Source: Flavobacterium crocinum (GTDB lineage: Bacteria; Bacteroidota; Bacteroidia; Flavobacteriales; Flavobacteriaceae). Taken from it: a stretch of 64,000 bases of DNA. The position numbers and the translations under genes are program-made. How positions within the stretch are numbered: position 1 is the stretch's first letter; the number at the start of each line of letters is the position of its first letter. Location: contig NZ_CP029255.1 of the NCBI RefSeq assembly GCF_003122385.1, positions 3,720,001 through 3,784,000 on the forward strand. The letters run 5' to 3'. Shown one piece after another: positions 39,573-54,832 of the stretch. Under the pieces are notes generated by a model. The model saw only the letters and a program-made list of their open reading frames with translations, ran no database searches and was not told the DNA's origin.

Positions 39573-40511
39573 TTAATTGATTTTAACCAAATTATTTTCG
39601 ATGGTTTTTCGATGTGCTTCATATTGAGCAGGAAGTTTTAAGTTTTGGCCCAATTCTTCCAAAGGTTCATCTACAGTAAATCCCGGATTGTCAGTAGCAA
39701 TTTCAAATAAAACACCTCCCGGTTCTCTAAAATATAAAGAGTGGAAATATTGTCTGTCAATCTGAGGTGTAATTGATAATCCATATTCTTCAATTTTGTC
39801 ACGGAAATGCATTAAAATTTCATCATTTTTTACGCGGAAAGCGACATGATGTACAGTTCCGTTAGCTACATGACCTTTTTTTTCTTCCGGTATTTCTACC
39901 AAATCAACAATAGCGGCATTTTCTACAGTAGCTGTAGCGTAACGGAAACGGTTATCTTCCTGACCGATTAATTTATAACCGAATATTTCTGTTAAAACAG
40001 CAGCAGTTGGTTTGACGTCTTTTAATGTCAGTGTAACGTTATGAAAACCTTTTGTAGCCACATTTGCCTTTACTTCCTCTGTTTCCCAGGCTTTTCGGTT
40101 ATCTTCTGTTTCAGATTCGATTAATTCTAATTTTAAACCGTCCGGGTCCTGAAAACTAAGGTATTTTTCTCCAAATTTCTCAGCAGGTTTTTCATAAGTA
40201 ACCTTGTACTGATCAAAACGTCTCTGCCAGAAATCAAGACTTCCTTTTGGTACAGAATAACCAATTTTTGTAGCCATTCCCGAACCTTCTCTGCCTTGTT
40301 GAATCGCAGACCCCCAAGGGAAAAAAGTTAAAATTGTTCCCGCACTTCCAACCTCATCACCAAAGTAAAAGTGATAGGTTCCCGGATCATCGAAGTTTAC
40401 GGTTTTTTTGATGAAACGTAATCCTAATATTTTAGAATAAAAATTGAAGTTTTGTTTCGCATCACCTGCAATTGCAGTAATATGGTGTAAGCCTAAAATT
40501 TTGTTTTCCAT
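39573..40511 (-). CDS. Ring-cleaving dioxygenase, VOC (glyoxalase) superfamily
   Basis: 312 residues with two VOC modules. The metal site reads H9/H10 in ILGLHHITAIAG, HH in GTVHHVAFRVKN and E in GGVLFEIATDNPG. The overall pattern (YHFYFGDEVGSAGTILTFFPW, SLYFREPGGVLFE, GQNLKLPAQYEAHR) is that of the MhqO/MhqA-type dioxygenases, which in Bacillus are induced by quinones and hydroquinones. It is divergent from a sigma-54 activator gene. Upstream lie a GG-N10-GC core, a TTAATC direct repeat and a 14-bp palindrome. It may open aromatic or hydroquinone rings as a detoxification step; the substrate is not proven. Confidence 0.85.
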   Translation of the reverse strand: MENKILGLHHITAIAGDAKQNFNFYSKILGLRFIKKTVNFDDPGTYHFYFGDEVGSAGTILTFFPWGSAIQQGREGSGMATKIGYSVPKGSLDFWQRRFDQYKVTYEKPAEKFGEKYLSFQDPDGLKLELIESETEDNRKAWETEEVKANVATKGFHNVTLTLKDVKPTAAVLTEIFGYKLIGQEDNRFRYATATVENAAIVDLVEIPEEKKGHVANGTVHHVAFRVKNDEILMHFRDKIEEYGLSITPQIDRQYFHSLYFREPGGVLFEIATDNPGFTVDEPLEELGQNLKLPAQYEAHRKTIENNLVKIN

Positions 40512-40548: not shown

Positions 40549-40564
40549 TGCAAGTTTACTTCCG
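40549..40564 (-). promoter_or_regulatory. Sigma-54-like core promoter of the dioxygenase gene
   Basis: The minus strand reads CGGAAGTAAACTTGCA: -24 GG, ten bases, -12 GC inside a perfect TTGCA. It lies 38 bp from the start codon. An overlapping TAAACTTG is one base off a housekeeping -7 box, so the sigma factor is not settled. Confidence 0.5.
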
Positions 40565-40579
40565 ATATAGTTCTGAATC

Positions 40580-40599
40580 GATTAACATAGATTAAGAAA
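40580..40599 (-). promoter_or_regulatory. Direct-repeat box TTAATC-N4-TTAATC
   Basis: The minus strand reads TTTCTTAATCTATGTTAATC. The two hexamers are one helical turn apart. The same 20 bases, two substitutions aside, lie upstream of the alpha/beta hydrolase gene (54325-54344) at an identical distance from the core promoter. Confidence 0.6.
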
Positions 40600-40705
40600 T
40601 AAAAAGGCATAGAATATTGTGCCATTACTATTACCCAAATAATATTCCAGTTTAAAAAAGGTATTGTTTATGAGAGGTTTGGCGTTTTATCCAATTTTTC
40701 ATTAA

Positions 40706-40719
40706 TACGATATATCGTA
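40706..40719. promoter_or_regulatory. Palindromic site TACGATATATCGTA
   Basis: A perfect 14-bp palindrome between the divergent dioxygenase and sigma-54-activator genes, followed by AATTTTAT. Sister sites with the same flank are at 53212 and 54501. It is a candidate upstream activator sequence. Confidence 0.65.
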
Positions 40720-40819
40720 ATTTTATGATTTCAATCTGCATATTTAGAAAAGGAATCACAATTTAATAAAGGCTCTTTCTTAAATTTACGGTATAAAATA
40801 CCGCGAGAATTTTTTATTT

Positions 40820-42397
40820 ATGGAAAAGCCGAATGACCAAACTCCAATTATGATGAACCGATTGCAGGAAAGAGAAAGAGAACAAATGCTAATTATGTCG
40901 TTTTGTTCGGAAATCGGTCAGACTTTAACTAAAGAAGAATTAAATGTGGTGATAGGCCAATTGAAAGAACAAATTTTTTTTGATGATTTTATTTTGGCTT
41001 CTTCAAATGAAAGTGAAACAGAATATTCTGTTTTCTGTCAATTCCTTCAGAAAGATAAAGACTTAAAAAAATATCCTGTAAATGATGGTTTTTTCGATAC
41101 TTGTCTGGATTCTGCCGATGCCGTTGTTTTTGATTTAAAAAATCAGAATTCCTTTCCTGAGTTTATTAAGAAAGCAAATGACAGCGGTTTTAAAAACGGA
41201 ATCGGTATTTCGCTGCCTTATGCTAAAGGAAAAAGCAATGTTCTTTTTATGTTTTTTAAAAGTGCACAGACTTTTAGCAGAGAATCTAACCGAATTATAA
41301 GAGGAATTGCAACTCAGTTATCTATAACCATCCAAAACATTGCTCTTAGTGAGAAATATGAAAGTGAAATTGCCGAACTAAAAAAACTCAAGCAAAGTTC
41401 TGTTCAAAAAGAAGAAGAAAAAGAAACTTCAAATGAAACTGACTCAGTAGGAATTGTGGGTGACAGCGCCGTAATGAAACAGGTTTCTGAGTTGATTGCT
41501 CAAGTTGCGCCCTCACAATCGACCGTTTTGATTTATGGAGAAACAGGAACCGGAAAAGAATTGGTTGCCGATGCAGTACATCGTTTATCGACGGTTTCAA
41601 AAAATAGAATCATAAAAGTAAATTGTGCCTCAATTCCGGTAAATCTAATTGAGAGTGAATTGTTCGGACATGAAAAAGGCGCTTTTACCGGAGCAACCGA
41701 ACAAAGAATTGGAAAATTTGAACAGGCGCAGGATGGTACTATTTTTCTGGATGAAATAGGGGAGTTGCCTTTGGAACTTCAGGGGAAATTGCTTCGTGTG
41801 CTTCAGGAAAAACAGATTGAAAGAATTGGAGGAAAAGAGACGATCAAAGTAAATGCAAGGGTAATTGCTGCAACTAACCGTTCATTAGAAAAAGAAGTTG
41901 CAGAAGAAAGATTCAGAAGTGATTTGTATTATCGTTTAAATGTGTTTCCAATTTCACTTCCGCCACTTCGGGAACGAAAAGAAGATATTCGGGTTTTAGG
42001 AGAATTTTTTCTGGAAAGGCACAGTTTGAAAATAGGGAAGAAGATAAAAGGCTTCTCTAAGAAAGTATTAAACAGCATGATGGTTTATGAATGGCCCGGA
42101 AATGTTAGAGAGCTTGAGAATATCATCGAAAGAAGTATTCTGTTTGCAAAAGATGAGCTAATAAAAGAAATCATTCTCCCTGAAATTTATAAACCGAAGT
42201 CTTATACTACAGAACCGGATTTTTATATTAAAACTTTACAGGAAGTAGAGAAAGAGCATATTTTGAAAGTGGTAAAAAAATGCAACGGAAGAATTTCCGG
42301 ACCTCAGGGTGCTGCGATTTTACTGGGACTTCCAAGTACAACTTTAATTTCCAGAATGCATAAATTAGGCATTAAAAAAAAGCATTTTCTGGATTGA
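40820..42397 (+). CDS. Sigma-54-dependent activator, GAF-AAA-HTH
   Basis: A bacterial enhancer-binding protein of 525 residues. It has an N-terminal GAF-like sensing domain (about 25-175), a central AAA+ domain (210-445) with Walker A GETGTGKE (240-247), the sigma-54-contacting GAFTGA (287-292) and Walker [12 protein letters not shown], and the Fis-type HTH at 490-523 ([20 protein letters not shown]). There is no receiver domain, so it is ligand- rather than phosphorylation-controlled. It is divergent from the ring-cleaving dioxygenase with a palindrome in between, the classic layout of activator and target. Its HTH resembles that of the response regulator at 43112, so the two may recognise related sites. 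Confidence 0.9.
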
Positions 42398-42398
42398 T

Positions 42399-43016
42399 TT
42401 ATTCTTCGACCATATTAATTTTCCCCGAAGAAACAGCCCAATAAATCAATAAAAGCATGCTGATTGCCAAAGCAGCAGCTGGATAGTGAAACGAAATTCC
42501 GAAGGCAATTAAATAAGTCGGGAATCCGTATAGATAATTGTTTCTTATTTTTTTGATTGCTGAATTGGTAATGCCGGGACGTAAAAGTTTTTTATTGTTA
42601 CTGGCAATAAACCAAAGCAGATTATACGAAATATTGATAAGAACAAAAATTCCGGTATAAATAGCAACCGAAATACTGGAAGCTTCTCCTTCGAAAAATC
42701 GCGATAAAAGCGCCGTAGGATAAGATACTGCAGTTACAAGAAAAAGAATTAATCCGTTTGAAAACATAATGGCTGTATTGCGACTATAGATTTGTTTGAA
42801 AATCTTGTGATGATTGACCCACATAATAAAAATACTGAAAAACGATAGCGTAAAAGCAAGATACGCTGTCCATTCGTTTTTTAAATACGCTAATAATTCA
42901 GCACCATTTTTTACAGTTTGTATGTCCGGAGCATGAAGATCCAGTACCAAAAGCGTAATCGCAATGGCAAAAACAGCATCGCTGAAATTTTCTATTCTAA
43001 TCGTTTCTTTTTCCAT
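42399..43016 (-). CDS. TMEM175/DUF1211-family membrane protein (putative potassium channel)
   Basis: About 205 residues with six hydrophobic segments. The family signature RIENFSDAVFAIAITLLVLD (FSD motif in TM1) follows the start directly. I chose the ATG at 43016 (MEKETIRI), which has an A-rich upstream stretch; the frame can be extended to an ATG at 43064. Bacterial members conduct potassium and lack a classic selectivity filter. The stop is separated by one base from the convergent sigma-54 activator gene. It is the last gene after the kinase/response regulator pair on this strand. Confidence 0.8.
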   Translation of the reverse strand: MEKETIRIENFSDAVFAIAITLLVLDLHAPDIQTVKNGAELLAYLKNEWTAYLAFTLSFFSIFIMWVNHHKIFKQIYSRNTAIMFSNGLILFLVTAVSYPTALLSRFFEGEASSISVAIYTGIFVLINISYNLLWFIASNNKKLLRPGITNSAIKKIRNNYLYGFPTYLIAFGISFHYPAAALAISMLLLIYWAVSSGKINMVEE

Positions 43017-43111
43017 TTTTTTTGATTTTTTTAAATCCGAAGAGACAATACTTTTCCAGCCCATAGGTTTCTATGCGCTTATTGATTCAGGAAATGTGAC
43101 TTCAGTGTTTC

Positions 43112-44470
43112 TTAATTGTATCCTTGTTTGATACCTAATTTTTTCATTTTTGAGAACAGCGTCTGTGGCTGCATTTTAAGTAATTCTGCTGCTCCGCCCG
43201 GGCCGGAAACTTTACCATTGCAGAGTTGAAGAGCATTCATAATATGCTCTTTTTCCATTTCTTCCATAGATTTTAATCCTCCGGATTTCAATTCTAAAGG
43301 TTGTTGATTGTGGGATGGAAGATCAAATTTTTCAATTTCACTGGTTTTGGCGAGCAGGACATTTCTTTCAATCAAATGTTCTAATTCGCGAATATTACCC
43401 GGCCAGTCGTACTGCATTAATTGTTCTAAAGCAATCGGACTTATGACTGTTACATTTTTACGGGAACTTATCGCATATTTTTTTACAAAATAATAGGCAA
43501 GAGCTTCAATGTCTTCTTTGCGTTCCTTGAGGGTTGGAAGTTGTATTGGAAATACATTTAAACGATAATACAAATCCAGTCTGAAACGACCTTCTGCAAC
43601 TTCTTTTTCTAAGGTTCTGTTGGTTGCGGCAACAATTCGGACATTGACTTTAATGGTTTTATTACCGCCAAGACGCTGAATTTCCTTTTCCTGTAAAACA
43701 CGCAATAACTTTACCTGTGAATCAAGTGGTAATTCTCCAATTTCGTCCAGAAAAATAGTGCCTTCATGTGCCTGTTCAAATTTTCCGATTCGCATAGAGT
43801 TGGCTCCGGTAAAAGCGCCTTTTTCATGCCCAAAAAGTTCTGATTCTATTAGTGAATGGGGCAAAGCAGCACAGTTTACAACCACAATCGGACTGGATTT
43901 GCGCCCGGAAAGTTCGTGTATAGAATGTGCGGCTCTTTCTTTCCCGGTTCCGCTTTCTCCTAAAATTAAGACAGAAGTTTCTGCGGGAGCCACAATTTTT
44001 ATCTTTTCAATGACTTCTTTTAGAAGTGGGCTGCTGCCAATGATTCCGTCTATTTCCTGATTTTCTTCATGGGTATTTTTATCGGTTAATGTTCCTGTTT
44101 CCTGATCAAATCTGTATTTAGCAATATCAAGCATTACGATAAGATCTTTTTCGCGAAAAGGCTTCACCATAAAACCATACGGATGTGTTGCTTTAACAGC
44201 TTCGAGCGTACTTTGGTTGGTATTGGCAGAAATATAAAGAAAAGGAAGTTGTAACTCCCGAAGTTCCCATGCGAGATCAATTCCGGTTAGACTGCCTTTT
44301 AGCATAATGTCCAGCAATACCCAGTCCGGTTTTTTGTCCTCGATTAACTTTCTGGCCTGAACAACCGATGAAGCAATACCGATTATTTGATAGCCCGCTT
44401 TAATTAGCATGATTTTTAAATCATTTGCTACAATAAATTCATCTTCAACAATTAGAATTTTCTCCTTCAT
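43112..44470 (-). CDS. Sigma-54 response regulator, REC-AAA-HTH (NtrC type)
   Basis: 452 residues. The receiver domain (1-120) has acidic pocket E9/D10, phospho-acceptor D54 (VLLDIML) and K103 (MVKPF). The AAA+ domain (140-380) has Walker A GESGTGKE (171-178) and GAFTGA (218-223). The C-terminal Fis-type HTH is GAAELLKMQPQTLFSKMKKL. It lies 9 bp after the TPR histidine kinase, so the two are an operon and a cognate pair. HisKA_2 kinases usually partner other output domains; coupling to an NtrC-type regulator is a flavobacterial habit. Targets may include the sigma-54 promoters described in this window. Confidence 0.9.
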   Translation of the reverse strand: MKEKILIVEDEFIVANDLKIMLIKAGYQIIGIASSVVQARKLIEDKKPDWVLLDIMLKGSLTGIDLAWELRELQLPFLYISANTNQSTLEAVKATHPYGFMVKPFREKDLIVMLDIAKYRFDQETGTLTDKNTHEENQEIDGIIGSSPLLKEVIEKIKIVAPAETSVLILGESGTGKERAAHSIHELSGRKSSPIVVVNCAALPHSLIESELFGHEKGAFTGANSMRIGKFEQAHEGTIFLDEIGELPLDSQVKLLRVLQEKEIQRLGGNKTIKVNVRIVAATNRTLEKEVAEGRFRLDLYYRLNVFPIQLPTLKERKEDIEALAYYFVKKYAISSRKNVTVISPIALEQLMQYDWPGNIRELEHLIERNVLLAKTSEIEKFDLPSHNQQPLELKSGGLKSMEEMEKEHIMNALQLCNGKVSGPGGAAELLKMQPQTLFSKMKKLGIKQGYN

Positions 44471-44479
44471 TACCTTGAT

Positions 44480-46756
44480 TTATATGATTTCAGAACTTTC
44501 GTCTATAACTTCAAATTCTGTATTTCTTGTAAACGTAATCGTGATTTTTAACCCATTGTCATTTTTCATCTCAAAATTTCCATCAATTTGATCTGTCAAT
44601 CCCATCATTAGATTCATTCCGAGAGAATCTCTTTCGGTGTCATGAAAATCTTCCGGAAGCCCAACACCATTGTCTGCTATAATAAGTTTGTAATCATTAT
44701 TTTCTATTTTTTTCAGACTAATAATGACTTCTCCTTTTCGGTTTGACGGAAAAGCATATTTAATAGCATTATTTATGGCTTCATTTATAATTAGCCCTAA
44801 CGGAACCGCTTTAGCAACATCAAGACAGACTTTTTCAGTATCGAGTACAAAATGGATTTTGTTATCAGTATTAAAACATTCTTTCATATAACTGATTAAC
44901 TCATAAATGTACCAGGACATGTCAATATTAGCCAGATTATCAGACTGATATAGTTTTTGATGAATCAAAGACATAGCGTGCATTCTGTGCTGGCTGTTTT
45001 GTATCGCCATTAAGGCATCTTCGTTATCGAGATAAGCAGATTGTGTGTTTAATAAACTAATCACAATCTGAAGATTGTTTTTCACACGATGATGAATTTC
45101 TTTTAAAAGCCATTCTTTTTCAATGAGCATTTTTTTGTTCAGCTCGTTTTGTTCGTTAATCTGCTGACGCTGTATTTCTAATGCTTCGTTCTTTTTCTTT
45201 TTTATTCTGAAGCTATTATACAAAAACGCTAAAAAAAGTATCAGAACAACAACGCTTCCTATAAAAACAGATCGGATTACATTATCTTTCTGAATCTGTA
45301 TTTGTTGTACTTTCGCCTGTTGTTGCAGTAAATCTATATTTTTATCTTTCTTCTCGCTTTCAAATTCGATCTGAAGACTGTTAATCTGTTTGCTTTTTTC
45401 GCCTTTAAAAACAGAATCAGATAAACTTTTATACAGTTGATAATGTTTGATGGCATTCAGATAATCTCCTCTGGAAGAATCGGCTTTAAACCAGATTAAA
45501 TAACTTTCTGACCGAATTAAATTGTTTCCTGCGCTTGCCGCCAAAGTGTCCAGTCTTTTTACCGTTCTGTAGAAATCATCGTATTTTTTTATTTGATACT
45601 GATAAGAAGCAAAACTTCTTAAAATCGCAATGCTGTTTCCGTTTCGATCTGCATTTTTACCATAGAAATCAGCCAGTTTTCTATAGTAAATTGCAGCCGT
45701 TGCATTATCATTTAAGATTCTGTAAATATTAAAAAGCAGGTAATTCTCTTTCATGATTCGTTCCATGTTAGAGCTTGGAAATTTTACCTGCATTTCTTTA
45801 ATCAGTTTAAGAGCATTTTTTTCTTTTTTCTGACGAATAAGCAATGAACAAAGATTTTCTCCGATTGTTCTAACATACTCTGTATCGTTATGTTTTTTAG
45901 CAATTTCAAAGGCTTTATACCAGTATTCTTCTGCATCATCATTTTGGCGCAAGTAATAATAAACAAGTCCAACATGATTGTAAATAGAGCTTAACTGTAG
46001 TGAAGTATCATTTACGGCAATAGCTGTTTTTTCTGCTAAAAGTGCAAATTTTAAAGACTCTGGATAATTGCCTTTTTGGGTATTTACTTCCGAAAGCAGA
46101 TTGTAAACACCTTGCAGCTTTTTGTATTTTATTGTTTTATAAAGTGCAAGAGATTCGAGTAAAAACGATTCTGCTTTATCCGGCTGTTCATTTATACTGT
46201 ATAATTCACCCAGTTCTTTTAAAGTTGTAGCTTGTTTTTCTTTGGCTCCGGCCTTTTTATAAAACTGAATGGCTAGTTTTTTGTATTTGGCTTTTTGTTC
46301 AACATCGGCATCATATATAGAGAATTCGGCATAACTTGCTGCCTGCTGCTCTATAAGATTATTTTTTTTAGAATAGGCAATCGCGTTTTTGGTTTTTTCT
46401 AATGCATTTTCGATATCGCCTTTTTCTCTGTAAATCTGAGCCCCTAAAAGAATTGATTTTCCTTTCCCGACTTTATACTTTAAACGATCACTTAATAAAT
46501 TGGCTTGTGTATTGATACGATCTGCATTGTCCAGATCTGCTTTAATTTCGCCTGTTTTATTGAGATAATAGCTGCTTAACCTTAAAAGCAATTCTACTTT
46601 TTTAGTATTGTTTTGAGCTTCAGCTATTTTCTTGTTTAATTCGTCAGGGTTTTCAACAGACTGTGCATTTCCTTTTGTGTTTATAAGAAACATTAAAAAT
46701 GCAAGACAAAGAAAACAGGAGTAATTTTTCAAGTGGTTTAGGGGATTAAATTTCAA
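44480..46756 (-). CDS. TPR sensor histidine kinase, HisKA_2, partner of the sigma-54 response regulator
   Basis: 758 residues. It has a signal peptide (about 1-32, with LCLAFLMFLINTKGNAQ), TPR repeats through about 440, one transmembrane helix (VFIGSVVVLILFLAFLYNSF, near 500-520), a coiled coil, then EIHHRVKNNLQIVISLL with H555/H556 and the HATPase N-box NEAINNAIKYAF (from 658) and DNGVGLP. It senses something in the periplasm through TPRs. It is in one unit with the regulator at 43112 (9-bp gap) and starts 52 bp after the DUF1275 gene, so it may also be read through from the long train upstream. Confidence 0.88.
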   Translation of the reverse strand: MKFNPLNHLKNYSCFLCLAFLMFLINTKGNAQSVENPDELNKKIAEAQNNTKKVELLLRLSSYYLNKTGEIKADLDNADRINTQANLLSDRLKYKVGKGKSILLGAQIYREKGDIENALEKTKNAIAYSKKNNLIEQQAASYAEFSIYDADVEQKAKYKKLAIQFYKKAGAKEKQATTLKELGELYSINEQPDKAESFLLESLALYKTIKYKKLQGVYNLLSEVNTQKGNYPESLKFALLAEKTAIAVNDTSLQLSSIYNHVGLVYYYLRQNDDAEEYWYKAFEIAKKHNDTEYVRTIGENLCSLLIRQKKEKNALKLIKEMQVKFPSSNMERIMKENYLLFNIYRILNDNATAAIYYRKLADFYGKNADRNGNSIAILRSFASYQYQIKKYDDFYRTVKRLDTLAASAGNNLIRSESYLIWFKADSSRGDYLNAIKHYQLYKSLSDSVFKGEKSKQINSLQIEFESEKKDKNIDLLQQQAKVQQIQIQKDNVIRSVFIGSVVVLILFLAFLYNSFRIKKKKNEALEIQRQQINEQNELNKKMLIEKEWLLKEIHHRVKNNLQIVISLLNTQSAYLDNEDALMAIQNSQHRMHAMSLIHQKLYQSDNLANIDMSWYIYELISYMKECFNTDNKIHFVLDTEKVCLDVAKAVPLGLIINEAINNAIKYAFPSNRKGEVIISLKKIENNDYKLIIADNGVGLPEDFHDTERDSLGMNLMMGLTDQIDGNFEMKNDNGLKITITFTRNTEFEVIDESSEII

Positions 46757-46808
46757 TTTTTAAAGATACTCTATTATCAGAAAACTGCAACCTGATGTCA
46801 ATGTTTTT

Positions 46809-47474
46809 CTAGCTTTCGCGGTGATACCAATAACAAATTATCATGGCTGTACCGGGAATAATTAAAGTTCCTAATCCAAAAAACTTTCCGGCAACTGCTC
46901 CTAAAAAACAGCCTGTAAGAAATCCAATAATAGTAACAAGTTGCTTCTTAAAACTTAAAAGCACATCGACATCTTTTAATCCGTTTTTGAGCAGATTTCC
47001 AAGATCAAGAGAAGCCTGAGTTACATTTCCTGTCATCATGGTTGTTGGACCGTAAGTTTCTTTGGCGTAAAGCTTTCCAAAAGCATTCTGAAGTCCCATT
47101 GCAAATACAGTTGTCATGGCTATAGCATAAACTGTCCATTCAGCTGTATTTTCTAAGTATCCAAAAATGTAAGAAGCAATACCACTTACTGCCAGAATAA
47201 CACCTTCCCAGCATAAAATAGTGTAATGATTAGCACTTTTTAAAGCAATTCTTCCACCGGTAATGACGGCTAAGATGAAGACGGGGAAAGTAAGCAGTTT
47301 TACCCACGCATGAATGTCTGAGCCTTTGATAATCTGATAAGCAAAGACAATAAAGTTACCCGTAACATGAGCTGAAAATATAGAATCCGCCGCGACAAAG
47401 GTTACGGTATCGCAATACCCTGCTATCATCGTGAGAAGCAGGGTTACGTACCAAATGTTTTTTTGTATTTCCAT
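46809..47474 (-). CDS. DUF1275 (YoaK-like) membrane protein
   Basis: 221 residues, about six transmembrane helices, with the family features AGYCDTVTFVAADSIFSAHV then TGNFIVFAYQI near the N-terminus and GLQNAFGKLYAKETYGPTTM with MTGNVTQASLDLG in the middle. Function unknown. It is the seventh gene of the minus-strand train, 11 bp after the Dps gene. A second, divergent DUF1275 gene is at 59147-59866, also in a stress-type operon. Confidence 0.8.
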   Translation of the reverse strand: MEIQKNIWYVTLLLTMIAGYCDTVTFVAADSIFSAHVTGNFIVFAYQIIKGSDIHAWVKLLTFPVFILAVITGGRIALKSANHYTILCWEGVILAVSGIASYIFGYLENTAEWTVYAIAMTTVFAMGLQNAFGKLYAKETYGPTTMMTGNVTQASLDLGNLLKNGLKDVDVLLSFKKQLVTIIGFLTGCFLGAVAGKFFGLGTLIIPGTAMIICYWYHRES

Positions 47475-47485
47475 AAAATTATTTT

Positions 47486-47959
47486 TTAGCTTAAGTGTGC
47501 TCTAAGCATCCAGGCCATTTTTTCGTGCGTTTCTAAAAGACCAGTGATATAATCACTTGTTCCGGCATCCTGAAGTTCTGAAGCAAAATTATTGATGTTC
47601 TCACGCAAATGAATTAAAATGCTTTCGTGATCCACCAATAACTCTTTAATGTAACTGATGCTGTCGTTTTGACCTTTTAATTCTTCTGTTAAATGCGTTA
47701 ATGCCAGATATTCTTTTAAAGTTCCCGGAGCGTAGTGTCCTAAAGTTCTGATTCTTTCGGCAACTGCATCAACAATTTCGTCAAGTGCTTCGTATTGCTG
47801 TTCAAAGAAAAGATGTTTGTTGTAGAAATCCGGACCTTCAACGTTCCAGTGTGCTTTTTTTGTTTTGGTATACAATACAAATTCGTCAGCTAAGACTTTT
47901 GTTAATACATCCACTACTGTTGTGATGCTTTCTTGTTTGATTCCGATGTTTGCTTTCAT
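47486..47959 (-). CDS. dps: Dps-family ferritin-like DNA-protection protein
   Basis: 157 residues forming the 12-mer mini-ferritin that oxidises Fe(II) with hydrogen peroxide and stores it, protecting DNA. The inter-subunit ferroxidase site is complete: H37 in KKAHWNVEG, H49 in YNKHLFF, D64 and E68 in DEIVDAVAERI, with the same spacing as E. coli Dps. It lies 2 bp after the DoxX gene and 11 bp before DUF1275, well inside the operon. Its presence points to an oxidant or metal stress role for the unit. Confidence 0.9.
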   Translation of the reverse strand: MKANIGIKQESITTVVDVLTKVLADEFVLYTKTKKAHWNVEGPDFYNKHLFFEQQYEALDEIVDAVAERIRTLGHYAPGTLKEYLALTHLTEELKGQNDSISYIKELLVDHESILIHLRENINNFASELQDAGTSDYITGLLETHEKMAWMLRAHLS

Positions 47960-47961
47960 TT

Positions 47962-48390
47962 TTAAATAAGGTTTAATAAATAATAATCAAGTGAATAGGT
48001 TCCTGCTCCAAGTGCAAGCAGCAGTAATAAGGATAAAGTGTACATATAAGGAACGTCACGGACTTCCAGTGAATCTTTTCGGTGTACTACAAAATAACCA
48101 ATTGCAGTAACACCAATTGTTGGAAGGACAGCCAAACGGGTTCCTAAGCCTAGTATAATAAAAACAGGAACTACAGTATCTGAAAATGTTGCCATTAACC
48201 CGTTTAGTTTTTCCGGTAAATGCAGTGGATTCGGAACATGTTCTTTTTGTCCGTTTTCCAATCTGAATTTTTTCATTCCATGTACTCTGAATAGTTCAAC
48301 AGCCAGCAGTATTCTAAAAACTAAAATTGCTGTATTGTTCAATGTTGATCCTAAATCGGAGTGCAGGATTAGTTTAATAATTTCGTTCAT
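47962..48390 (-). CDS. DoxX-family membrane protein
   Basis: 142 residues with four hydrophobic helices; the DoxX pattern starts at ILVFRILLAVELFRVHGMKK and includes LNGLMATFSDTVVPVFIILG and GVTAIGYFVVHRKDS. Members accompany thiosulfate:quinone oxidoreductases or oxidative-stress proteins in several bacteria; the molecular role of stand-alone forms is uncertain. Overlap-free, 9 bp after the amidohydrolase and 2 bp before dps, so translationally coupled expression is likely. Confidence 0.75.
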   Translation of the reverse strand: MNEIIKLILHSDLGSTLNNTAILVFRILLAVELFRVHGMKKFRLENGQKEHVPNPLHLPEKLNGLMATFSDTVVPVFIILGLGTRLAVLPTIGVTAIGYFVVHRKDSLEVRDVPYMYTLSLLLLLALGAGTYSLDYYLLNLI

Positions 48391-48399
48391 TTTTTCAGT

Positions 48400-50286
48400 T
48401 TAAAATGCAAAACAGGAACAGCCCAAAGCGCCCCAAAATGCGTTATAATTATTTACAGGAACATTGCTCATTCTGGCAACATCGTGATTGTGAGCGTGAA
48501 CATCACAACTTCCGGAGCAGCTATGAATTTGTGCTGTCAGTTTTGGTTTTGCATCCGCTTTTGCATTTTTTTCTATAGCACTCTGCAAACCGCTTCTAAC
48601 AGGATATCCGTTGTAAATATTCGTTGGCGACCAATCAGGTAAAATCGGAATGTGAGGCGGTGAGAATGAAGAAAAATCACCATTTGCATAGACAATTTTT
48701 CCATCGACAATCGTTAAATCCGATTCGATTTTTTTGATGTCTTCGTCGTCAATTGTAAAATAATCACGATCCAGGACTACTAGATCCGCAAACATTCCTA
48801 CTTTAATATCTCCTTTTTTAGTCTGTTCCTGAGAAAACCAGGCGCTTCCTCTAGTATAAAGTTCCAAAGCGGTTTGTCTGTTCAATCTCGTTTCATTGTA
48901 TAATTGTAGACCTCCAACCGTTTTTCCGACCGTCATCCAATACATGGAAACCCACGGATTGTAACTGCTTACTCTGGTAGCATCTGATCCTGCACCAACA
49001 GGAACTTCCATTTCAATCATTTTTTTGATTGGCGGTGTGTTTTCTGCTGCTTTTGCTCCATATCGATCCGTAAAATATTCTCCCTGATACGCCATTCTAC
49101 TTTGAATTGCAATGCCGCCTCCCAGCGCTTTTACACGTTCGATGTTTCTTTCGTCAATAGTTTCCGCATGGTCAAAAATCCAAGGAAGTCCGTTAAAAGG
49201 AATTTCTCTGTTGATTTTTTCAAAAACATTCAAAAAGCGCGTAATACTTTCATTATAAGTAGCATGAAGTCTGAACGGCCAGCGGTTTTCTACCAAAAGA
49301 CGAACAACCTTTTCCAATTCGGCTTCCATGTTTTCAGGAAGATCAGGTCTTGGTTGTAGAAAATCTTCAAAATCAGCTGCAGAAAAAACTAACATTTCGC
49401 CCGCTCCATTATGACGATACATATCATCGCCCTGATATAATTTCACGGTATCAATCCAATCTTCAAAATCTTCAAATTCGTGTTTCGGTTTTTGAGTGAA
49501 AAGATTATAGGCAATTCGAACCGTTAATTGTTTCTTTTCGTTCAGTTCATTGACCACTTTATAATCGTCCGGAAAATTCTGGAATCCGCCGCCGGCATCA
49601 ATAACACTGGTAATTCCAAAACGATTCAGTTCTTTCATAAAATGACGTGTCGAATTGATTTGATGTTCATACGAAAGAGTAGGGCCTTTAGCCAAAGTCG
49701 AATACAAAATCATAGCATTTGGTGTTGCAATGATCAATCCGGTTGGTTCGCCTTTTGTATCTCTCTCAATATGTCCTCCCGGCGGGGCAGGTGTATTTTT
49801 AGTATAACCAACCGCTTTTAAGGCTGCTCTGTTCATAATGGCTCTATCATACAAATGCAAAATAAAAACCGGAGTTTCAGGAGCTATCGCATTGATTTCT
49901 TCAAGAGTTGGCATTCTGCGTTCGGCAAACTGAAATTCAGACCAGCCGCCAACCACACGAACCCATTGCGGATTTGGTGTACGATCTACTTGTTCTTTTA
50001 GCATTCGGAGCGCATCTGCAAGTGAAGGAACACCATCCCATCGCAATTCTAAATTATAATTCAAACCACCTCGGATCAGGTGAATGTGAGAATCGTTAAT
50101 TCCGGGAACCACTCTTTTATTTTGAAGATCGATTATTTTAGTTTCTTCAGATGCCAATTCCATAACACTGCTGTCGTTTCCCACAGCAATAAATTTCCCA
50201 TCTTTTATGGCAACTGCGGTTACGTTTGGTGTTTCGGTGTTGAAACTATGAATTTTACCGTTGAATAGAATTAGATCTGCTTTCAT
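48400..50286 (-). CDS. YtcJ-like metal-dependent amidohydrolase with a Cys/His-rich tail
   Basis: 628 residues of the amidohydrolase_3 type. The N-terminal metal site is GINDSHIHL (H67, H69); other motifs are IFDHAETIDERNIERVKALG, GAGSDATRVSSYNPW (metal Asp) and KGDIKVGMFADLVVLDRDYF. A unique C-terminal extension beyond about 585 reads H588, C590, C594, H597, H599, H601 and finally C623, C625, and may bind a metal. No signal peptide is present. It is the fourth gene of the train, 9 bp before DoxX and 8 bp after the M17-N-like gene. The substrate is unknown; family members hydrolyse C-N bonds of varied cyclic compounds. Confidence 0.85.
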   Translation of the reverse strand: MKADLILFNGKIHSFNTETPNVTAVAIKDGKFIAVGNDSSVMELASEETKIIDLQNKRVVPGINDSHIHLIRGGLNYNLELRWDGVPSLADALRMLKEQVDRTPNPQWVRVVGGWSEFQFAERRMPTLEEINAIAPETPVFILHLYDRAIMNRAALKAVGYTKNTPAPPGGHIERDTKGEPTGLIIATPNAMILYSTLAKGPTLSYEHQINSTRHFMKELNRFGITSVIDAGGGFQNFPDDYKVVNELNEKKQLTVRIAYNLFTQKPKHEFEDFEDWIDTVKLYQGDDMYRHNGAGEMLVFSAADFEDFLQPRPDLPENMEAELEKVVRLLVENRWPFRLHATYNESITRFLNVFEKINREIPFNGLPWIFDHAETIDERNIERVKALGGGIAIQSRMAYQGEYFTDRYGAKAAENTPPIKKMIEMEVPVGAGSDATRVSSYNPWVSMYWMTVGKTVGGLQLYNETRLNRQTALELYTRGSAWFSQEQTKKGDIKVGMFADLVVLDRDYFTIDDEDIKKIESDLTIVDGKIVYANGDFSSFSPPHIPILPDWSPTNIYNGYPVRSGLQSAIEKNAKADAKPKLTAQIHSCSGSCDVHAHNHDVARMSNVPVNNYNAFWGALGCSCFAF

Positions 50287-50294
50287 AATTTCGA

Positions 50295-51017
50295 TTATTT
50301 AGCGTTCAATTTTGCAATAGCCTCTTTGATTCCCTCGCCGGCAACAGTATAAAAAGCAGGTCCTGCAAGCAGAATAACTTTTGTTAAAGGTTTGTAGTCA
50401 GCTAATTTTTTTGCTTTTAGATAAGATTGTGTTCTATAAGCTTCGAATGAACCTAAAACTACATTTGTAGCCACCAAAGCCGTTGGAGAATCAATTCCTG
50501 CATCTTTAATATCACTTGCAAAAGAATAGTTGGAAACGCCCAAACGTAAAGCTTCACGCATAGCGGTGCTTCCAACGCTAATCATTAAATCAGGAGTAAA
50601 TTTGGTGCGGTCTCCCAATCCAATCAGTAATAATTGTTTTGAAGCCAAAGTTCCTTTTGGAGGTGTAATCAATAAAGTTTCAAGAGAATGACCTGTAAAT
50701 TTTCCGCTTTTACGTAATTCAGTTATAATACCTTTTAAGGCATCGTCTAAATGTACCATTCCGTTTAAATTTGCCGGAAGAGCAGGAGGATTGAAAATAT
50801 CACCTTCTGTATATTCAAAAACACAAGCAACCTGAAGGTCAGCTTCTGCAGCGGATGGACCCTGAACCAATCCGTTTACGGCAACTCCATCTACTTTTCC
50901 CCAGGTAACTGTAGAACCGATTGAAGCTGTTTGTGCAAAGCCATTAAACGAAAATGTTAGGATTAAAAGAAAGAGATAGGAGTATCTGAATTTGTAAATT
51001 GAAGTTTTTGTTTTCAT
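50295..51017 (-). CDS. Exported peptidase M17 N-terminal-domain protein
   Basis: About 240 residues. The ATG at 51017 gives a good signal peptide (YSYLFLLILTFSFNGFAQ); the longer frame to 51137 would overlap the porin gene by 100 bp and is rejected. The mature part resembles the N-terminal macro-like domain of leucyl aminopeptidases (LLLIGLGDRTKFTPDLMISV, then ALRLGVSNYSFASDIKDAG). The catalytic M17 domain with its metal ligands is missing, so it is unlikely to be a peptidase. It may bind a small ligand in the periplasm. It follows the porin gene by 19 bp. Confidence 0.65.
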   Translation of the reverse strand: MKTKTSIYKFRYSYLFLLILTFSFNGFAQTASIGSTVTWGKVDGVAVNGLVQGPSAAEADLQVACVFEYTEGDIFNPPALPANLNGMVHLDDALKGIITELRKSGKFTGHSLETLLITPPKGTLASKQLLLIGLGDRTKFTPDLMISVGSTAMREALRLGVSNYSFASDIKDAGIDSPTALVATNVVLGSFEAYRTQSYLKAKKLADYKPLTKVILLAGPAFYTVAGEGIKEAIAKLNAK

Positions 51018-51036
51018 TGTTAAGGGTTTAGTATTG

Positions 51037-52434
51037 TTAAAATTTGAATCCAAGTCGGGTGTTAAAGAAAACACCATCTTTTGAGTTCGGAATAATGTCA
51101 TTGATAAAAGCACCAGTTTTAAAGTATTGAATACCACTGACTACTGAAATATATTTGTTTACGTTGTACGTGAAATTAGCCAGATAAGCAGTTCCAATAT
51201 ATTTTTCGTCAGAATCGCTTCCGCGAAGGTTCAGCATGCCGCTTGGCCTGTAAACTCCATCTTGAGTTGAGTATCTCCAGTTTAATACCATATCGACCTG
51301 CATCTTAAGTTGTGGCAGTAAATCCATCGTAACATAAGGATGAATGTCGATAAGGTTTACGGGGCCAACCTGAGGGCTAAAGCCAAAATAACCTCCTTTT
51401 GGATAAAGCGGATTAAACGTCTGAAGATTTCCATTTCCCTGATTTCTATCTCCTGAGATATAGTCATTTCGGAGATTTATCGTAGGTTTAAATTTTGTGT
51501 TTTCAAACATATATCCAATGTCGACAGATCCTGTCCAGGCATTAATATCCCCTGAGCCAAAAGTTCCAAATTGATAGGCCGCTTCCAGATTGTATATAAA
51601 TCCGCCGCCGTATTTCCATAATCTTGTTCCAATTGTATGACGTCTTTCCGGAGCGATTCCTTCTTCAAAAAGCGATTCGTCTCTTCTTATTCCGAGATAA
51701 TAAACATCGAGATTTCCTGCTTTTGGAAAGATTATTTTAGAATAAGCTCCCCATAGATTGAATTGTTTAGACATTTTATTGTCAAAAACTCCTGTATGAA
51801 TTGTATCTGCCATCATCGCAAAGGCATCAACAGATACTCTTGAAGAGTTATACATTAATTTGGCTCCTGTAAAATAAAGTCTTGCATTTGGACCTTCTCT
51901 AACAGAAATTAATCTTCCGGAACCATAATCTAATTCCTGTCTTCCGGCACGAATGGTTATTTTTTTGTCTTTTTGCTGCCAGACATTTACATCCAGAAAC
52001 AAATTCTGAACATTTAACTGATCTTCATCAATTCCTCTTGCTCCGTTTACGCGGCCGTCTTCGAGGGCACTTCTTAACTGAGCAAATACTCTAAAGGTTT
52101 TTCCTAAATGAATATCGGCATGAAGATCATAACGTTGCAGTAAAAAATTGTTGTGACCAATATTTAATCTTCCCCAATCTTCATTGTTGAAATCAACATA
52201 TTCATATCGGGCTTCGCCTCCAAGAGACATATAAATATCTTTCTGTTTGTTTAACGGAATGAATTTTAGTTTTTCATAAAAGTTTCTGTTTGAATCTTTT
52301 AGAAATTCATAATTTTCATCGTAACGCAAAAGCTTAAAACTTTGAGCTATTGTCGTTGTTCCAATTAAAAGAAAGCATAAAAGAATAATCCGGAAGAATT
52401 TGTTTGGCGATATGGATTTTGATGATTCCAACAT
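51037..52434 (-). CDS. Outer-membrane porin of the alginate-export (AlgE-like) family
   Basis: 465 residues with a signal peptide (FFRIILLCFLLIGTTTIAQ) and a barrel of about 18 strands. Typical segments are GGEARYEYVDFNNEDWG, RYDLHADIHLGKTFRVFAQL and GRQELDYGSGRLISVREGPN, the last being the signature of this family, ending NTRLGFKF with terminal Phe. It is expected to be a passive channel for an organic compound rather than for alginate. It is the second gene of the train, 41 bp after the YcaC-like hydrolase. Confidence 0.85.
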   Translation of the reverse strand: MLESSKSISPNKFFRIILLCFLLIGTTTIAQSFKLLRYDENYEFLKDSNRNFYEKLKFIPLNKQKDIYMSLGGEARYEYVDFNNEDWGRLNIGHNNFLLQRYDLHADIHLGKTFRVFAQLRSALEDGRVNGARGIDEDQLNVQNLFLDVNVWQQKDKKITIRAGRQELDYGSGRLISVREGPNARLYFTGAKLMYNSSRVSVDAFAMMADTIHTGVFDNKMSKQFNLWGAYSKIIFPKAGNLDVYYLGIRRDESLFEEGIAPERRHTIGTRLWKYGGGFIYNLEAAYQFGTFGSGDINAWTGSVDIGYMFENTKFKPTINLRNDYISGDRNQGNGNLQTFNPLYPKGGYFGFSPQVGPVNLIDIHPYVTMDLLPQLKMQVDMVLNWRYSTQDGVYRPSGMLNLRGSDSDEKYIGTAYLANFTYNVNKYISVVSGIQYFKTGAFINDIIPNSKDGVFFNTRLGFKF

Positions 52435-52475
52435 AATGAAGCGTAAGAGATTTATAATAAAATGAATTAGTCGAA

Positions 52476-53108
52476 TTAGTGTTTCAGCATGTTGTGAGCA
52501 TAGTGAATTCCTAAACCATAAGAACCACCGTGTTTTTTCATTAAGTTTGTTACCGGAACATAGGTTTCCTGACGCGCCCAGTCTCTTTGCAGTTCTAAGA
52601 TATATTGAATAGAAGTCACAGGTTGTGCACCTGCCTGGATCATTCTCTGAATAGCACGTTCATGAGCTTCATCACTCACATCACCACACGCATCTGTGAT
52701 AACATAAACTTCGTAACCTTCTTCAAGTGCTGATAAAGCCGGACCAACGATGCAAACACCTGTCCATAATCCGGCTAAAACTATTTTTTGTTTTTTTGTT
52801 CCCGTAATAGCCTTGTAAGCATTTTCATCTTCCCAGGTATTCATTGTAGTACGATCGATATAACCTGAAGTGGCAATTGGATAATATTCTTCGATTTCCG
52901 GAAAAACAGGACCCGCAAAACTTTCTTCAAAAACAGTAGTTACAATAGTGGGTACATTAAAAATTTTAGACGCACCACAGATAATAGCAACATTATTACG
53001 AAGTTCACTTATTGCAATATTATTGGTTGCAAAAGCCATTTGTCCTTCAAAATCGATTAATACTAATGCATGGTTATCTGGTGATAATAAGTTTACGGAT
53101 GGTTTCAT
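52476..53108 (-). CDS. YcaC-like cysteine hydrolase (isochorismatase family)
   Basis: About 210 residues. The ATG at 53108 (MKPSVNLLS) is chosen: it lies 22 bp after the expected start of a sigma-54 promoter transcript, whereas the frame up to 53180 runs through the promoter itself. Catalytic residues appear as D19 (ALVLIDFEGQ) and C119 (GLWTGVCIVGPAL), with a Lys near 105-108. The closest pattern is YcaC and related nicotinamidase-like hydrolases of undefined substrate. First gene of a seven-gene minus-strand train and the best candidate for a sigma-54 operon in this window. Confidence 0.85.
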   Translation of the reverse strand: MKPSVNLLSPDNHALVLIDFEGQMAFATNNIAISELRNNVAIICGASKIFNVPTIVTTVFEESFAGPVFPEIEEYYPIATSGYIDRTTMNTWEDENAYKAITGTKKQKIVLAGLWTGVCIVGPALSALEEGYEVYVITDACGDVSDEAHERAIQRMIQAGAQPVTSIQYILELQRDWARQETYVPVTNLMKKHGGSYGLGIHYAHNMLKH

Positions 53109-53140
53109 GATATTTATTTTTTTAGATTTATAATTAGTCA

Positions 53141-53156
53141 AGCCAATGAAGTGCCA
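53141..53156 (-). promoter_or_regulatory. Sigma-54 core promoter of the YcaC-porin-amidohydrolase train
   Basis: The minus strand reads TGGCACTTCATTGGCT: TGGCAC at -24, ten bases between GG and GC, TGGCT at -12 (consensus TTGCW). The predicted start is near 53130, 22 bp before the ATG. Confidence 0.65.
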
Positions 53157-53211
53157 AACATTCATTTTATTGTATAGCAAGACATTGTGCTATTGGGATG
53201 CCAAAAGCATT

Positions 53212-53225
53212 TACGATATTTCGTG
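53212..53225. promoter_or_regulatory. Palindromic site TACGATATTTCGTG
   Basis: Thirteen of fourteen bases match the 54501 site, and the flank ATTTTATTA also matches. It lies about 82-95 bp upstream of the predicted sigma-54 start, the usual distance for an enhancer-binding-protein site. Confidence 0.65.
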
Positions 53226-53374
53226 ATTTTATTAAGCCTTATTCGTTATACAGGAAAAAGTGTAGAAAGTTTCTGTTTGATTTCAGTTCAAATAGAAACC
53301 CTTTTTGGAAGATTTAAAACCGTCGGTAAAGGCGTCCCCTTGCAGACAGTTTTTAGTTTCTTTATTAAGAAAAA

Positions 53375-54193
53375 TTATTCTTTGATAAAAGCAAGAATAT
53401 CTTTATTGATTGTTTCTGCTTCTGTAGTTGGCATACCATGAGGGAAACCAGGATAAGAAATTAGTTTTCCGTTTTTCAAAAGTTTTGCCGCCCTTGGAGC
53501 CTGATCGTAAGGAACAATTTGGTCATCTTCTCCGTGAAGTACCAAAACGGGAATGTCTAAACTTTTAAGATCTTCTTTAAAATCGGATTCTGAGAAAGCT
53601 TTGATGCCTTCATAATGAGCATAAACAGATCCCATCATGCCCTGACGCCACCAATTGTGTCTAATTCCTTCTTTAATAGTTTGTCCTTCGCGGTTCCATC
53701 CGTAAAATGGAATAGGGAAGTCGTAGAAATATTGCGCTTTGTTGAACCCGGTTCCTTGTCTGATTTCATCAAAAACAGCTAAAGGAACACCTTCAGGATT
53801 ATCTTCGTTTTGAATCATAATAGGTGTTACAGCGCTTATGATTACTGCTTTTGCAATACGTCCTTTTCCGTATTTTGCAGCGTAACGGATTACTTCTCCA
53901 CCTCCGGTTGAATGTCCTACGTGAATAGCATCTTTTAAATCAAGTGCTTCAGTTAATGCTGCTACGTCTGAAGCGTAAGTTTCCATGTTATTTCCTTCAG
54001 AACTTTGACCAGAGCGACCATGTCCGCGACGATCATGTGCAATAACTCTGTATCCTTGTTTTAGAAAAAACATCATCTGTGCATCCCAGTCATCAGATGA
54101 TAATGGCCATCCGTGGTGAAAAACAATTGGCTGACCTGTTCCCCAATCTTTGTAAAAAATTTCTGTTCCGTCTTGTGCTTTAATAGTGCTCAT
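53375..54193 (-). CDS. Alpha/beta hydrolase, non-heme haloperoxidase type
   Basis: 272 residues, cytoplasmic. The catalytic triad is S95 in GHSTGGGE, D223 or D224 in HGEDDQIVPYD, H252 in FPHGMP. The oxyanion HHGWPLSSDDWDAQ and HDRRGHGRSG motifs are standard for the chloroperoxidase/bromoperoxidase (perhydrolase-like) esterases. The natural substrate is uncertain. Upstream it shares both a palindrome and a TTAATC direct repeat with the dioxygenase gene 13 kb away. It ends 266 bp before the YcaC-like gene starts and is transcribed in the same direction. Confidence 0.9.
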   Translation of the reverse strand: MSTIKAQDGTEIFYKDWGTGQPIVFHHGWPLSSDDWDAQMMFFLKQGYRVIAHDRRGHGRSGQSSEGNNMETYASDVAALTEALDLKDAIHVGHSTGGGEVIRYAAKYGKGRIAKAVIISAVTPIMIQNEDNPEGVPLAVFDEIRQGTGFNKAQYFYDFPIPFYGWNREGQTIKEGIRHNWWRQGMMGSVYAHYEGIKAFSESDFKEDLKSLDIPVLVLHGEDDQIVPYDQAPRAAKLLKNGKLISYPGFPHGMPTTEAETINKDILAFIKE

Positions 54194-54293
54194 CTTAATG
54201 TGGTTTTGGATTAATAAATGTTTATATATAATTGTTTAAAATTCTGATCGTAATTAAATCTGATTTTGATTCAATTATGTTGTTGTTTTTTTT

Positions 54294-54309
54294 TACAAAC
54301 TTAGAACAG
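54294..54309 (-). promoter_or_regulatory. Core promoter of the alpha/beta hydrolase gene
   Basis: The minus strand reads CTGTTCTAAGTTTGTA and contains a perfect -7 TAAGTTTG but no -33 TTG. At the sigma-54 positions it has TG and GT instead of GG and GC, so it is probably a housekeeping-type promoter that depends on an activator at the adjacent direct repeat. Confidence 0.45.
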
Positions 54310-54324
54310 GAATGAAAGTTTGTT

Positions 54325-54344
54325 GATTAATGTAGATTAAGAAA
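54325..54344 (-). promoter_or_regulatory. Direct-repeat box TTAATC-N4-TTAATC, second copy
   Basis: The minus strand reads TTTCTTAATCTACATTAATC, 18 of 20 identical to 40580-40599. In both cases 21 bases separate the last TTAATC from the TAARYTTG element. Confidence 0.6.
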
Positions 54345-54832
54345 GAAAAAAATCTCTTTTTTATCTTTTTTTTTTTCGAAGTACTGTTTCCATATTTTTT
54401 GATTAAGAATATTTTTGGTACAGTATTTTCAAACAATATGCCGTGTATATTAATTCGCTTGTTTGTAAGGCTTTAAGTGTTTTTGAAGTGTTTTTGAATT
54501 TACGATATTTCGTAGATTTATTATCCGCTTTTAATAAAAAAGTATTTTAAACAGCATTTTTTTCGAAAGAGGCTGATTTTGGAAAAGGAATAAAATGAAA
54601 GTTTTGAATTGTTTTTTTGATATTTAGGGTCGTCAAACTACCCAATTCTACTTCGATGTTTTACAAAACAGTTTCAGTATTTCAGAAAGATTATATGATA
54701 ACTCCAAAGCATAGCTTTCCCTTTTATTGCTTTGAAAATCCTGATTAGAACAACGATGTTCAGATTGAATTAAGCAATAATTTTATTTCCGTACTTTAAG
54801 AAAACATTATTTTGGTTGGTTTTACTGAAGAA
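54345..54832. other. Gene-free region between the alpha/beta hydrolase and the molybdoenzyme
   Basis: Apart from the palindrome at 54501-54514, this region holds only AT-rich sequence and poly-T. No clear terminator is seen after the molybdoenzyme gene. Confidence 0.4.
54501..54514. promoter_or_regulatory. Palindromic site TACGATATTTCGTA
   Basis: The third copy of the TACGA-N4-TCGTA site, preceded by AATT and followed by GATTTATTA. It lies about 310 bp upstream of the alpha/beta hydrolase start. Confidence 0.6.

Follow-up and report, generated by a model that had tools for sequence, protein, structure and literature searches.

The window analyzed here is a stretch of 64,000 nucleotides from the single-contig, 5.88-Mb genome of Flavobacterium crocinum (NZ_CP029255.1, positions 3,720,001 to 3,784,000), in which three copies of one palindrome, a putative upstream activating sequence (UAS), lie before genes for enzymes of a detoxification-like kind. 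Palindrome 1 (40706..40719) is situated between the divergent genes of a ring-cleaving dioxygenase of the VOC superfamily (39573..40511, minus strand) and of a sigma-54 activator (40820..42397, plus strand). Palindrome 2 (53212..53225) precedes the gene of a YcaC-like hydrolase of the isochorismatase fold (52476..53108, minus strand, its start being taken as the ATG at 53108 and not the TTG at 53180), and palindrome 3 (54501..54514) that of an alpha/beta hydrolase of the non-heme chloroperoxidase/arylesterase family (53375..54193, minus strand). An earlier note on this DNA, made from its letters alone, had described the three sites and the minus-strand genes behind them; all three match TACGATATWTCGTR with zero mismatches, and each lies upstream of the gene that the note had named. 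The shared flank that it had also proposed is present as ATTTTATTA at site 2 and as GATTTATTA at site 3, and site 1 deviates from it, reading ATTTTATGA.

The detoxification-like nature of the targets was borne out by homology. The best solved relative of the dioxygenase is 3oaj ('Putative ring-cleaving dioxygenase mhqO'), which aligns to residues 2-309 of 312 with an E value of 1.5e-87, and the third is 4huz, a 2,6-dichloro-p-hydroquinone 1,2-dioxygenase; full-length homology thus makes it an MhqO-type enzyme with a predicted activity of that family. The YcaC-like protein is related to 1yac (YcaC; E 4.8e-34) and the alpha/beta hydrolase to 1a88 (E 1.2e-119). According to an excerpt of PMC6798810, MhqO-type enzymes function in quinone detoxification.

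A scan of the source genome, the check that had been proposed for the palindrome, found exact matches to TACGATATWTCGTR at the three window sites and nowhere else in the 5.88 Mb, and none of the reversed pattern, which served as the control. When one mismatch was allowed, 7 further places appeared versus 6 for the control; five of the 7 lie inside listed open reading frames (ORFs), and the other two are intergenic and precede paralogues of the same enzymes. Because a three-mismatch search of the window alone was not above chance (25 matches versus 19.05 +/- 5.62 in shuffles), the palindrome signal rests on its exact matches. Across 121 Flavobacterium genomes, the exact palindrome occurs in 15, that is, in 12/12 genomes with an orthologue of the 40820 activator of at least 63% identity and in 3/109 others (G033, G106 and G107), and the control gave 12 matches across 10/121 genomes. 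The association between palindrome and orthologue has a Fisher's exact P of 4e-14, which is uncorrected for relatedness and overstates the association because the genomes are related. The copy at G106:C45 329397-329410, in a genome that has no close activator orthologue, may be due to chance.

The sites are also conserved in place. In 27/27 named orthologue loci (L041-L066 and L068), the activator gene is preceded by a palindrome that has two mismatches at most; several named loci and genus genome entries are the same genomes, so that such counts are not independent of one another. In the column profile of 27 aligned dioxygenase-activator intergenic regions, the window's among them, the 10-bp core of palindrome 1 is identical in 26. 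In a comparison of the promoters of this genome and 11 synteny genomes, the palindrome was found at the dioxygenase promoter in 12/12 and at the orthologous alpha/beta hydrolase gene in 12/12, each with at most one mismatch, and at the YcaC-like gene in 8/12 with at most two. Among the 40 sites collected for the analysis of geometry, the flank ATAAAAT is conserved ahead of the palindrome in gene orientation, and inspection by eye of the DNA ahead of the window sites for another palindrome revealed only this flank. These palindromes are real and non-random.

Each window palindrome is followed, at a near-fixed distance, by a sigma-54-like -24/-12 core on the minus strand. At the dioxygenase promoter the core TGGAATATTATTTGGG (40634..40649) lies 56 bp after palindrome 1, with the -24 GG at 40648-40647 and a -12 element that reads GG and not GC; the -24 GG and the first -12 G are kept in 27/27 aligned regions. 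The YcaC-like promoter carries the GG-N10-GC core TGGCACTTCATTGGCT at 53141..53156, where it had been predicted, at offset 55 after palindrome 2, and the alpha/beta hydrolase promoter carries CGGCATATTGTTTGAA (54428..54443) at offset 57 after palindrome 3, with GA at -12. A -24 GG and a -12 GC ten bases apart are both present at the YcaC-like gene; in the promoters of the dioxygenase and the alpha/beta hydrolase, the -24 GG and the -12 G are there and the C is not. Two other statements of the earlier note did not hold. The dioxygenase core that it had placed at 40549-40564 was rejected, since the window's row is the only one of the 27 with an intact GG-N10-GC there, the GG alone is present in 13/27 rows, and the position overlaps a sigma-A-type -7 box; the conserved core is that at 40634-40649. 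Cores had likewise been assigned to two of the three sites, and site 3 has one too at the same offset. GG-N10-GC is so frequent in the window (201 occurrences, roughly 0.47 per 300 bp of each strand) that its presence at two of three sites is by itself no evidence.

In the geometry set, 39/40 sites have, as one of their two best sigma-54 matches, a GG-bearing one at offset 54-57, the miss being the site G033 x. In the window, the GG of a GG-N10-G stands at offset 56-58 in 3/3 sites, as it does at 2.5% of random positions (0.025 for each site), the offset having been chosen post hoc. The layout of an enhancer, in which the site is followed by a core 55-57 bp away, thus holds for all three promoters, as the earlier note had supposed for two. 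Between palindrome 1 and its core lies an IHF/HU-like motif, AAACAATACCTTT (40657..40669, minus strand, offset 36), which agrees with the IHF consensus WATCAANNNNTTR at 7/9 positions. The best IHF match falls at offset 35-37 in 26/40 sites, and the IHF-like score at the peak offset averages 7.24/9 over 38 sites (those of G101 C29 and G033 x were dropped), versus 4.92, with a maximum of 5.32, in 200 shuffles. RpoN is encoded in the source genome. Experimentally supported -24/-12 promoters, grouped as motif SM4, are known in F. psychrophilum from the part of PMC9723704 that was available.

The earlier note had called the regulon local, and this did not stand. A site model trained on 29 sites from 11 other genomes, with this genome left out, recovered five promoters in the source genome at E values of 1.6e-15 to 6.3e-9, and the next match was at 0.0088; of these weaker matches (E 0.0088 to 10), that at 4338269 alone was noted. 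The five promoters are the three in the window and two intergenic ones 0.55 and 1.16 Mb away, which precede a dioxygenase paralogue of 87% identity by 205 bases and a YcaC paralogue of 73% identity by 149 bases. Because these two precede distant paralogues, the regulon is genome-wide rather than local. The weak candidate at 4338269-4338357 (E 0.0165) lies before an alpha/beta hydrolase gene, shortly after a paralogous receiver-domain activator (G000:C1 4335950-4337899), near which a second cluster encodes a kinase, alpha/beta hydrolases, an amidohydrolase and a porin.

Within the genus, the model matched in 27/121 genomes at E 0.001. Its 82 matches comprise the 29 training sites, the three window sites and 50 others, 44 of which were examined together with 4338269; two matches of G062, one of G033 (contig 2) and one of G107, plus those of G010 and G031, were left out. 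Among these 45 further sites, 26 precede genes for a VOC dioxygenase (8), a YcaC-like protein (11) or an alpha/beta hydrolase (7), and the remaining 19 precede genes for an amidohydrolase (2), other hydrolases (6), Dps, catalase, YceI, MaoC, a kinase and a small acetyltransferase, or have no assignment (5). None of the 45 is spanned by an ORF of at least 80 amino acids, the rule applied by the script. Once the 12 training and own genomes were removed, 13 of the 15 genomes with matches were among the 16 with a close activator-family member (best E 6e-90 or better, the next being 1e-78; the cut-off was set after the list had been seen), and G010 and G031, outside those 16, have partial model matches without the palindrome.

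As to the protein that would bind these sites, the activator encoded at 40820 had been described as GAF-type and as the presumed binder. It contains an AAA+ domain (PF00158, E 2.6e-72) with a Walker A motif (GETGTGKE) and GAFTGA in the translation. No GAF domain was detected in it with Pfam, and a comparison of structures showed the GAF fold in its N-terminus (residues 1-186), which upheld the description. Pfam HTH_8 gave no match to it at 0.001; its C-terminus aligns to the NCBIfam FhlA model up to residue 522, which identifies an FhlA-type helix-turn-helix, and HTH_8 does match the paralogue at about 4.336 Mb, whose C-terminus is similar. The source genome encodes ten strong sigma-54 activators, four of which share the FhlA-type helix-turn-helix (40820, 43112, the 4.336-Mb paralogue and one at 2.340 Mb, G000:C1) and six of which do not. 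The recognition helices of 40820 (TTLISRM) and of the 4.336-Mb protein (TTLASRM) fit the pattern TTLxSK/R, and those of 43112 (QTLFSKM) and of the 2.340-Mb protein (STLNSKI) are each one residue off it.

The 43112 protein (43112..44470, minus strand), with a receiver domain, an AAA+ domain and a related helix-turn-helix, has orthologues at E 1e-130 or better in 17/121 genomes, and the adjacent histidine kinase with TPR and HisKA_2 domains (44480..46756, minus strand) is its presumed partner. Both are encoded at the end of a closely spaced minus-strand run headed by the YcaC-like gene, which further includes genes for a porin, an amidohydrolase, DoxX and a Dps-like protein and which, judging by ORF spacing only, is probably one operon. 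Palindrome 2 may thus drive this second activator, a response regulator, too. A short protein encoded in the cluster (50295-51137) corresponds to M17 leucyl aminopeptidases in their N-terminal domain only.

Other genera of the family bear on the same question. Outside the genus comparison, site-model matches (E 1e-4) were found in 13/249 family genomes, two of which are Flavobacterium, and an osmC-like gene lies next to the site in 7 of the other 11. Those 11 genomes and 15 without a match, 26 in all, were searched with the 40820 protein, and 30 loci were examined. For one type of activator, represented by 12 loci from 12 Flavobacteriaceae genera (L293-L297, L299-L302 and L314-L316), a palindrome with at most one mismatch follows the gene in 12/12, no more than 350 bp from its stop codon, and it is absent within that distance at 18/18 other activator loci. 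Of the 12 linked loci, 11 carry two or three palindromes with a spacing of 18-23 or 39-40 bp, and an OsmC-family gene then follows in 11/12 (Pfam-confirmed in 11/11; none is shown at L300); the site model had missed four of the 12 at that place (G126, G131, G139 and G338 contig 21). All 12 linked activators read TTLxSK/R, where x is A in 7, T in 4 and F in 1.

Pfam searches with six activators of this osmC-linked type (L293, L294, L297, L300, L302 and L315, osmC adjoining in 5/6) revealed a cyclic-nucleotide-binding (cNMP) domain in 6/6 and a PAS domain in 3/6 before the AAA+ domain, and HTH_8 scored above the cut-off in three, just below it in two and gave no match in one. The sensor of the linked activators thus differs from the GAF domain of the window protein, and the helix and the operator are kept. 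Consensus-like cores, TTTGGCACGG-N4-TGC, stand at the osmC sites of these genera. Because the palindrome accompanies 12/12 linked loci versus 0/18 others, the FhlA-type helix-turn-helix subfamily very probably reads it. The earlier proposal that the 40820 protein is the binder therefore stands as regards its helix-turn-helix subfamily and falls as regards exclusiveness, given the four paralogues and the sites in genomes in which no close orthologue was found. This protein is the best candidate and a likely binder of the window sites, and binding is likely to be shared among the paralogues.

Taken together, these results make it quite probable that the palindrome, with its core ACGAWATWTCGT, is the UAS of a small sigma-54 regulon for detoxification-type genes and is bound by an FhlA-type helix-turn-helix activator. 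Such a protein, most likely that of 40820-42397 and possibly shared with its paralogues, would bind the palindrome, and bending of the DNA, perhaps by an IHF/HU protein, would deliver it to the sigma-54 RNA polymerase held at the core 55-57 bp beyond, where ATP hydrolysis would open the promoter. The targets would be the MhqO-type dioxygenase, the YcaC-like probable operon with its kinase and second activator, the chloroperoxidase-type hydrolase, and the distant paralogues of the first two. Their likely purpose would be defense against quinones, other reactive electrophiles or peroxides, and a role of the regulon in electrophile defense is plausible from the homologies of its enzymes.

Nevertheless, several observations weigh against a sigma-54 regulon served by the 40820 protein. 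The weak point of its sigma-54 part is the -12 element, which is GG in the dioxygenase promoter and GA in that of the alpha/beta hydrolase, and the IHF-like motifs of the window sites are imperfect, scoring 7, 6 and 6 of 9. A counterpart of the YcaC site was not found in 4/12 genomes (G090, G059, G076 and G051), no site lies before the activator of L067, a 41% relative from an unclassified Bacteroidetes bin, and 3/16 non-training genomes with a close family member have no site match (G013, G084 and G098), the helix being of the palindrome-linked kind in G013 and different in G084 and G098. Six genomes (G006, G052, G062, G078, G108 and G120) have sites and, among the matches listed, only distant activator-family members. 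Finally, at L051 the dioxygenase gene and its core are gone and the palindrome beside the activator is intact.

Alternatively, the palindrome could be the enhancer of this regulon and its main binder a paralogue, either the 43112-44470 protein with its adjacent kinase or one of the receiver-domain activators at about 4.336 and 2.340 Mb, which we consider possible but rather unlikely. The FhlA-type helix-turn-helix is common to all four paralogues, and across the 11 synteny genomes the 43112 orthologues are better conserved (82-93% identity) than those of 40820 from the same cluster (63-78%). Furthermore, the family member found is of the 2.340-Mb type in G006, G062, G108 and G120, so that the TTLxSK/R rule is not strict, and of the 4.336-Mb type in G052. 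However, the helices of 12/12 palindrome-linked activators read TTLxSK/R, like those of 40820 and of the 4.336-Mb protein and, by a small difference, unlike QTLFSKM of 43112; a search at E 1e-130 revealed no orthologue of 43112 in six genomes with sites; and palindrome 1 stands beside the 40820 gene at every named orthologue locus, even where the dioxygenase has been lost. As a side observation, variant operators resembling AGCGAWATATAGC share regions with activators of the 2.340-Mb kind (G006:C4 393121, G076:C6 75951, G048:C18 353442 and, in the source genome, where it reads TTACGATATATAACA, G000:C1 2314408), suggesting that the operator is split between paralogues.

The loss at L051, where palindrome 1 persists with neither dioxygenase nor sigma-54 core, argues either for a recent deletion or for an extra role of the site in the promoter of the activator gene itself, and because of it control of the activator may be an additional, or even the main, function of the site. 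The strong conservation of the stretch from the palindrome to the activator ATG would suit a palindrome that is mainly an autoregulatory site of activator genes, with the enzyme promoters as a secondary use, yet no activator gene adjoins palindrome 2, palindrome 3 or either of the two distant sites and the core offset is kept at the enzyme promoters, which leaves this account improbable. It is still more improbable that the palindrome is the site of a repressor or other regulator and that the sigma-54-like cores are coincidental or weak: the missing -12 GC in 2/3 window cores would be expected under that account, but the near-fixed core offset in 39/40 sites, the consensus-like cores at the osmC sites of other genera and the linkage of the sites to genes of sigma-54 activators all speak for the UAS of a sigma-54 regulon.

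Two of the enzyme promoters have, in addition, a proximal promoter of sigma-A type on the minus strand, in which a box TTAATCTANNTTAATC stands 21 bp before a TAnnYTTG box (20 bp at the alpha/beta hydrolase gene of G082). At the dioxygenase gene (40551..40595), the box TTAATCTATGTTAATC (40580-40595) is followed 21 bp on by the sigma-A -7 box TAAACTTG (40551-40558), and at the alpha/beta hydrolase gene (54296..54340) the box TTAATCTACATTAATC (54325-54340) is followed at the same spacing by TAAGTTTG (54296-54303). The box is found without mismatch and with the 21-bp spacing at 12/12 orthologous dioxygenase promoters, the window's included, and with at most two mismatches at 13/14 alpha/beta hydrolase promoters examined, the miss being G033. 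The distant dioxygenase paralogue has such a promoter as well, and the YcaC promoters examined are without the box. A genome scan for the box pattern at up to 3 mismatches gave no excess over the reversed control (12 versus 12), and for this reason the only matches that count are those with 0-1 mismatch and those conserved between genomes. The same type of box also occurs at an acetyltransferase-esterase operon of the source genome; proximal box promoters outside the window lie at G000:C1 4326188-4326232 and 4324494-4324538. Related boxes (TTAATCTANNTTAAGT) precede YceI and pirin genes there. Both promoter inputs would point to electrophile or oxidative stress.

In a wider and more tentative view, to which we give somewhat less than even weight, the sites would belong to a Flavobacteriaceae sigma-54 network against electrophiles and peroxides that has one shared enhancer, ACGAWATWTCGT, and a near-rigid geometry of enhancer, IHF-like motif and core. 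Its sensors would have been swapped (GAF in the window, a receiver in three paralogues, cNMP and PAS in other genera), with the DNA-binding end and the operator kept; several paralogues would converge on one operator, so that signals would be integrated at the DNA site, and the targets would change by genus, from osmC in most of the other genera seen to MhqO-, YcaC- and chloroperoxidase-type enzymes in Flavobacterium. To our knowledge, pairs of activator and enhancer are poorly mapped outside Proteobacteria. If true, such a system would offer a concrete pair of enhancer and activator that could be tested throughout a family of environmental bacteria, would tie sigma-54 to quinone and peroxide defense, and would provide a natural series, with one operator, swapped sensors and changing targets, in which the rewiring of regulons could be studied.

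The mechanism is a textbook one and the enhancer of a known kind; the docking sequence and the gene set look undescribed, and searches of open-licence PMC text, judged by titles, the openings of abstracts and selected passages, yielded no description of this enhancer or target set. FhlA belongs to the same activator class as the 40820 protein, with an AAA+ domain and a related C-terminal helix-turn-helix, and the NCBIfam FhlA model covers residues 141-522 of the latter, yet at 388.1 bits versus the NF011958 cut-off of 830. The half-site ACGAAA/TTTCGT is common to the window palindromes and the FhlA enhancer CATTTCGTACGAAATG (consensus from an excerpt of PMC4987338), but the half-sites face the opposite way in the window (ACGAWAT-ATWTCGT), no FhlA-type enhancer was found in the window at 3 mismatches, and the targets are not hydrogenase genes. 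NorR, which the same excerpt of PMC4987338 describes as a GAF-AAA-HTH protein with several enhancers per promoter, resembles the 40820 protein in domain order, and its multiple enhancers recall the palindromes that stand in tandem at the osmC genes of other genera, whereas its enhancer is GT-N7-AC and the 40820 protein scores 363 bits versus the NF003451 cut-off of 476. The score against the NifA model is likewise below its cut-off (389 versus 528.85 bits, TIGR01817). The SM4 promoters of F. psychrophilum are -24/-12 promoters within the genus, but the targets named in the available part of PMC9723704 are chaperones, Lon and a gliding operon, and no enhancer sequence is given there. The MhqR/YodB regulons of Bacillus and Staphylococcus are governed by MarR/DUF24 repressors, unlike the sigma-54 activator layout of the window, in which MhqR-type operators had 0 matches at up to 3 mismatches. 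The Bacillus quinone regulon also has a DoxX-type partner. In content these regulons resemble that of the window, combining, in the portion of PMC6798810 at hand, an MhqO-family dioxygenase with alpha/beta hydrolase partners.

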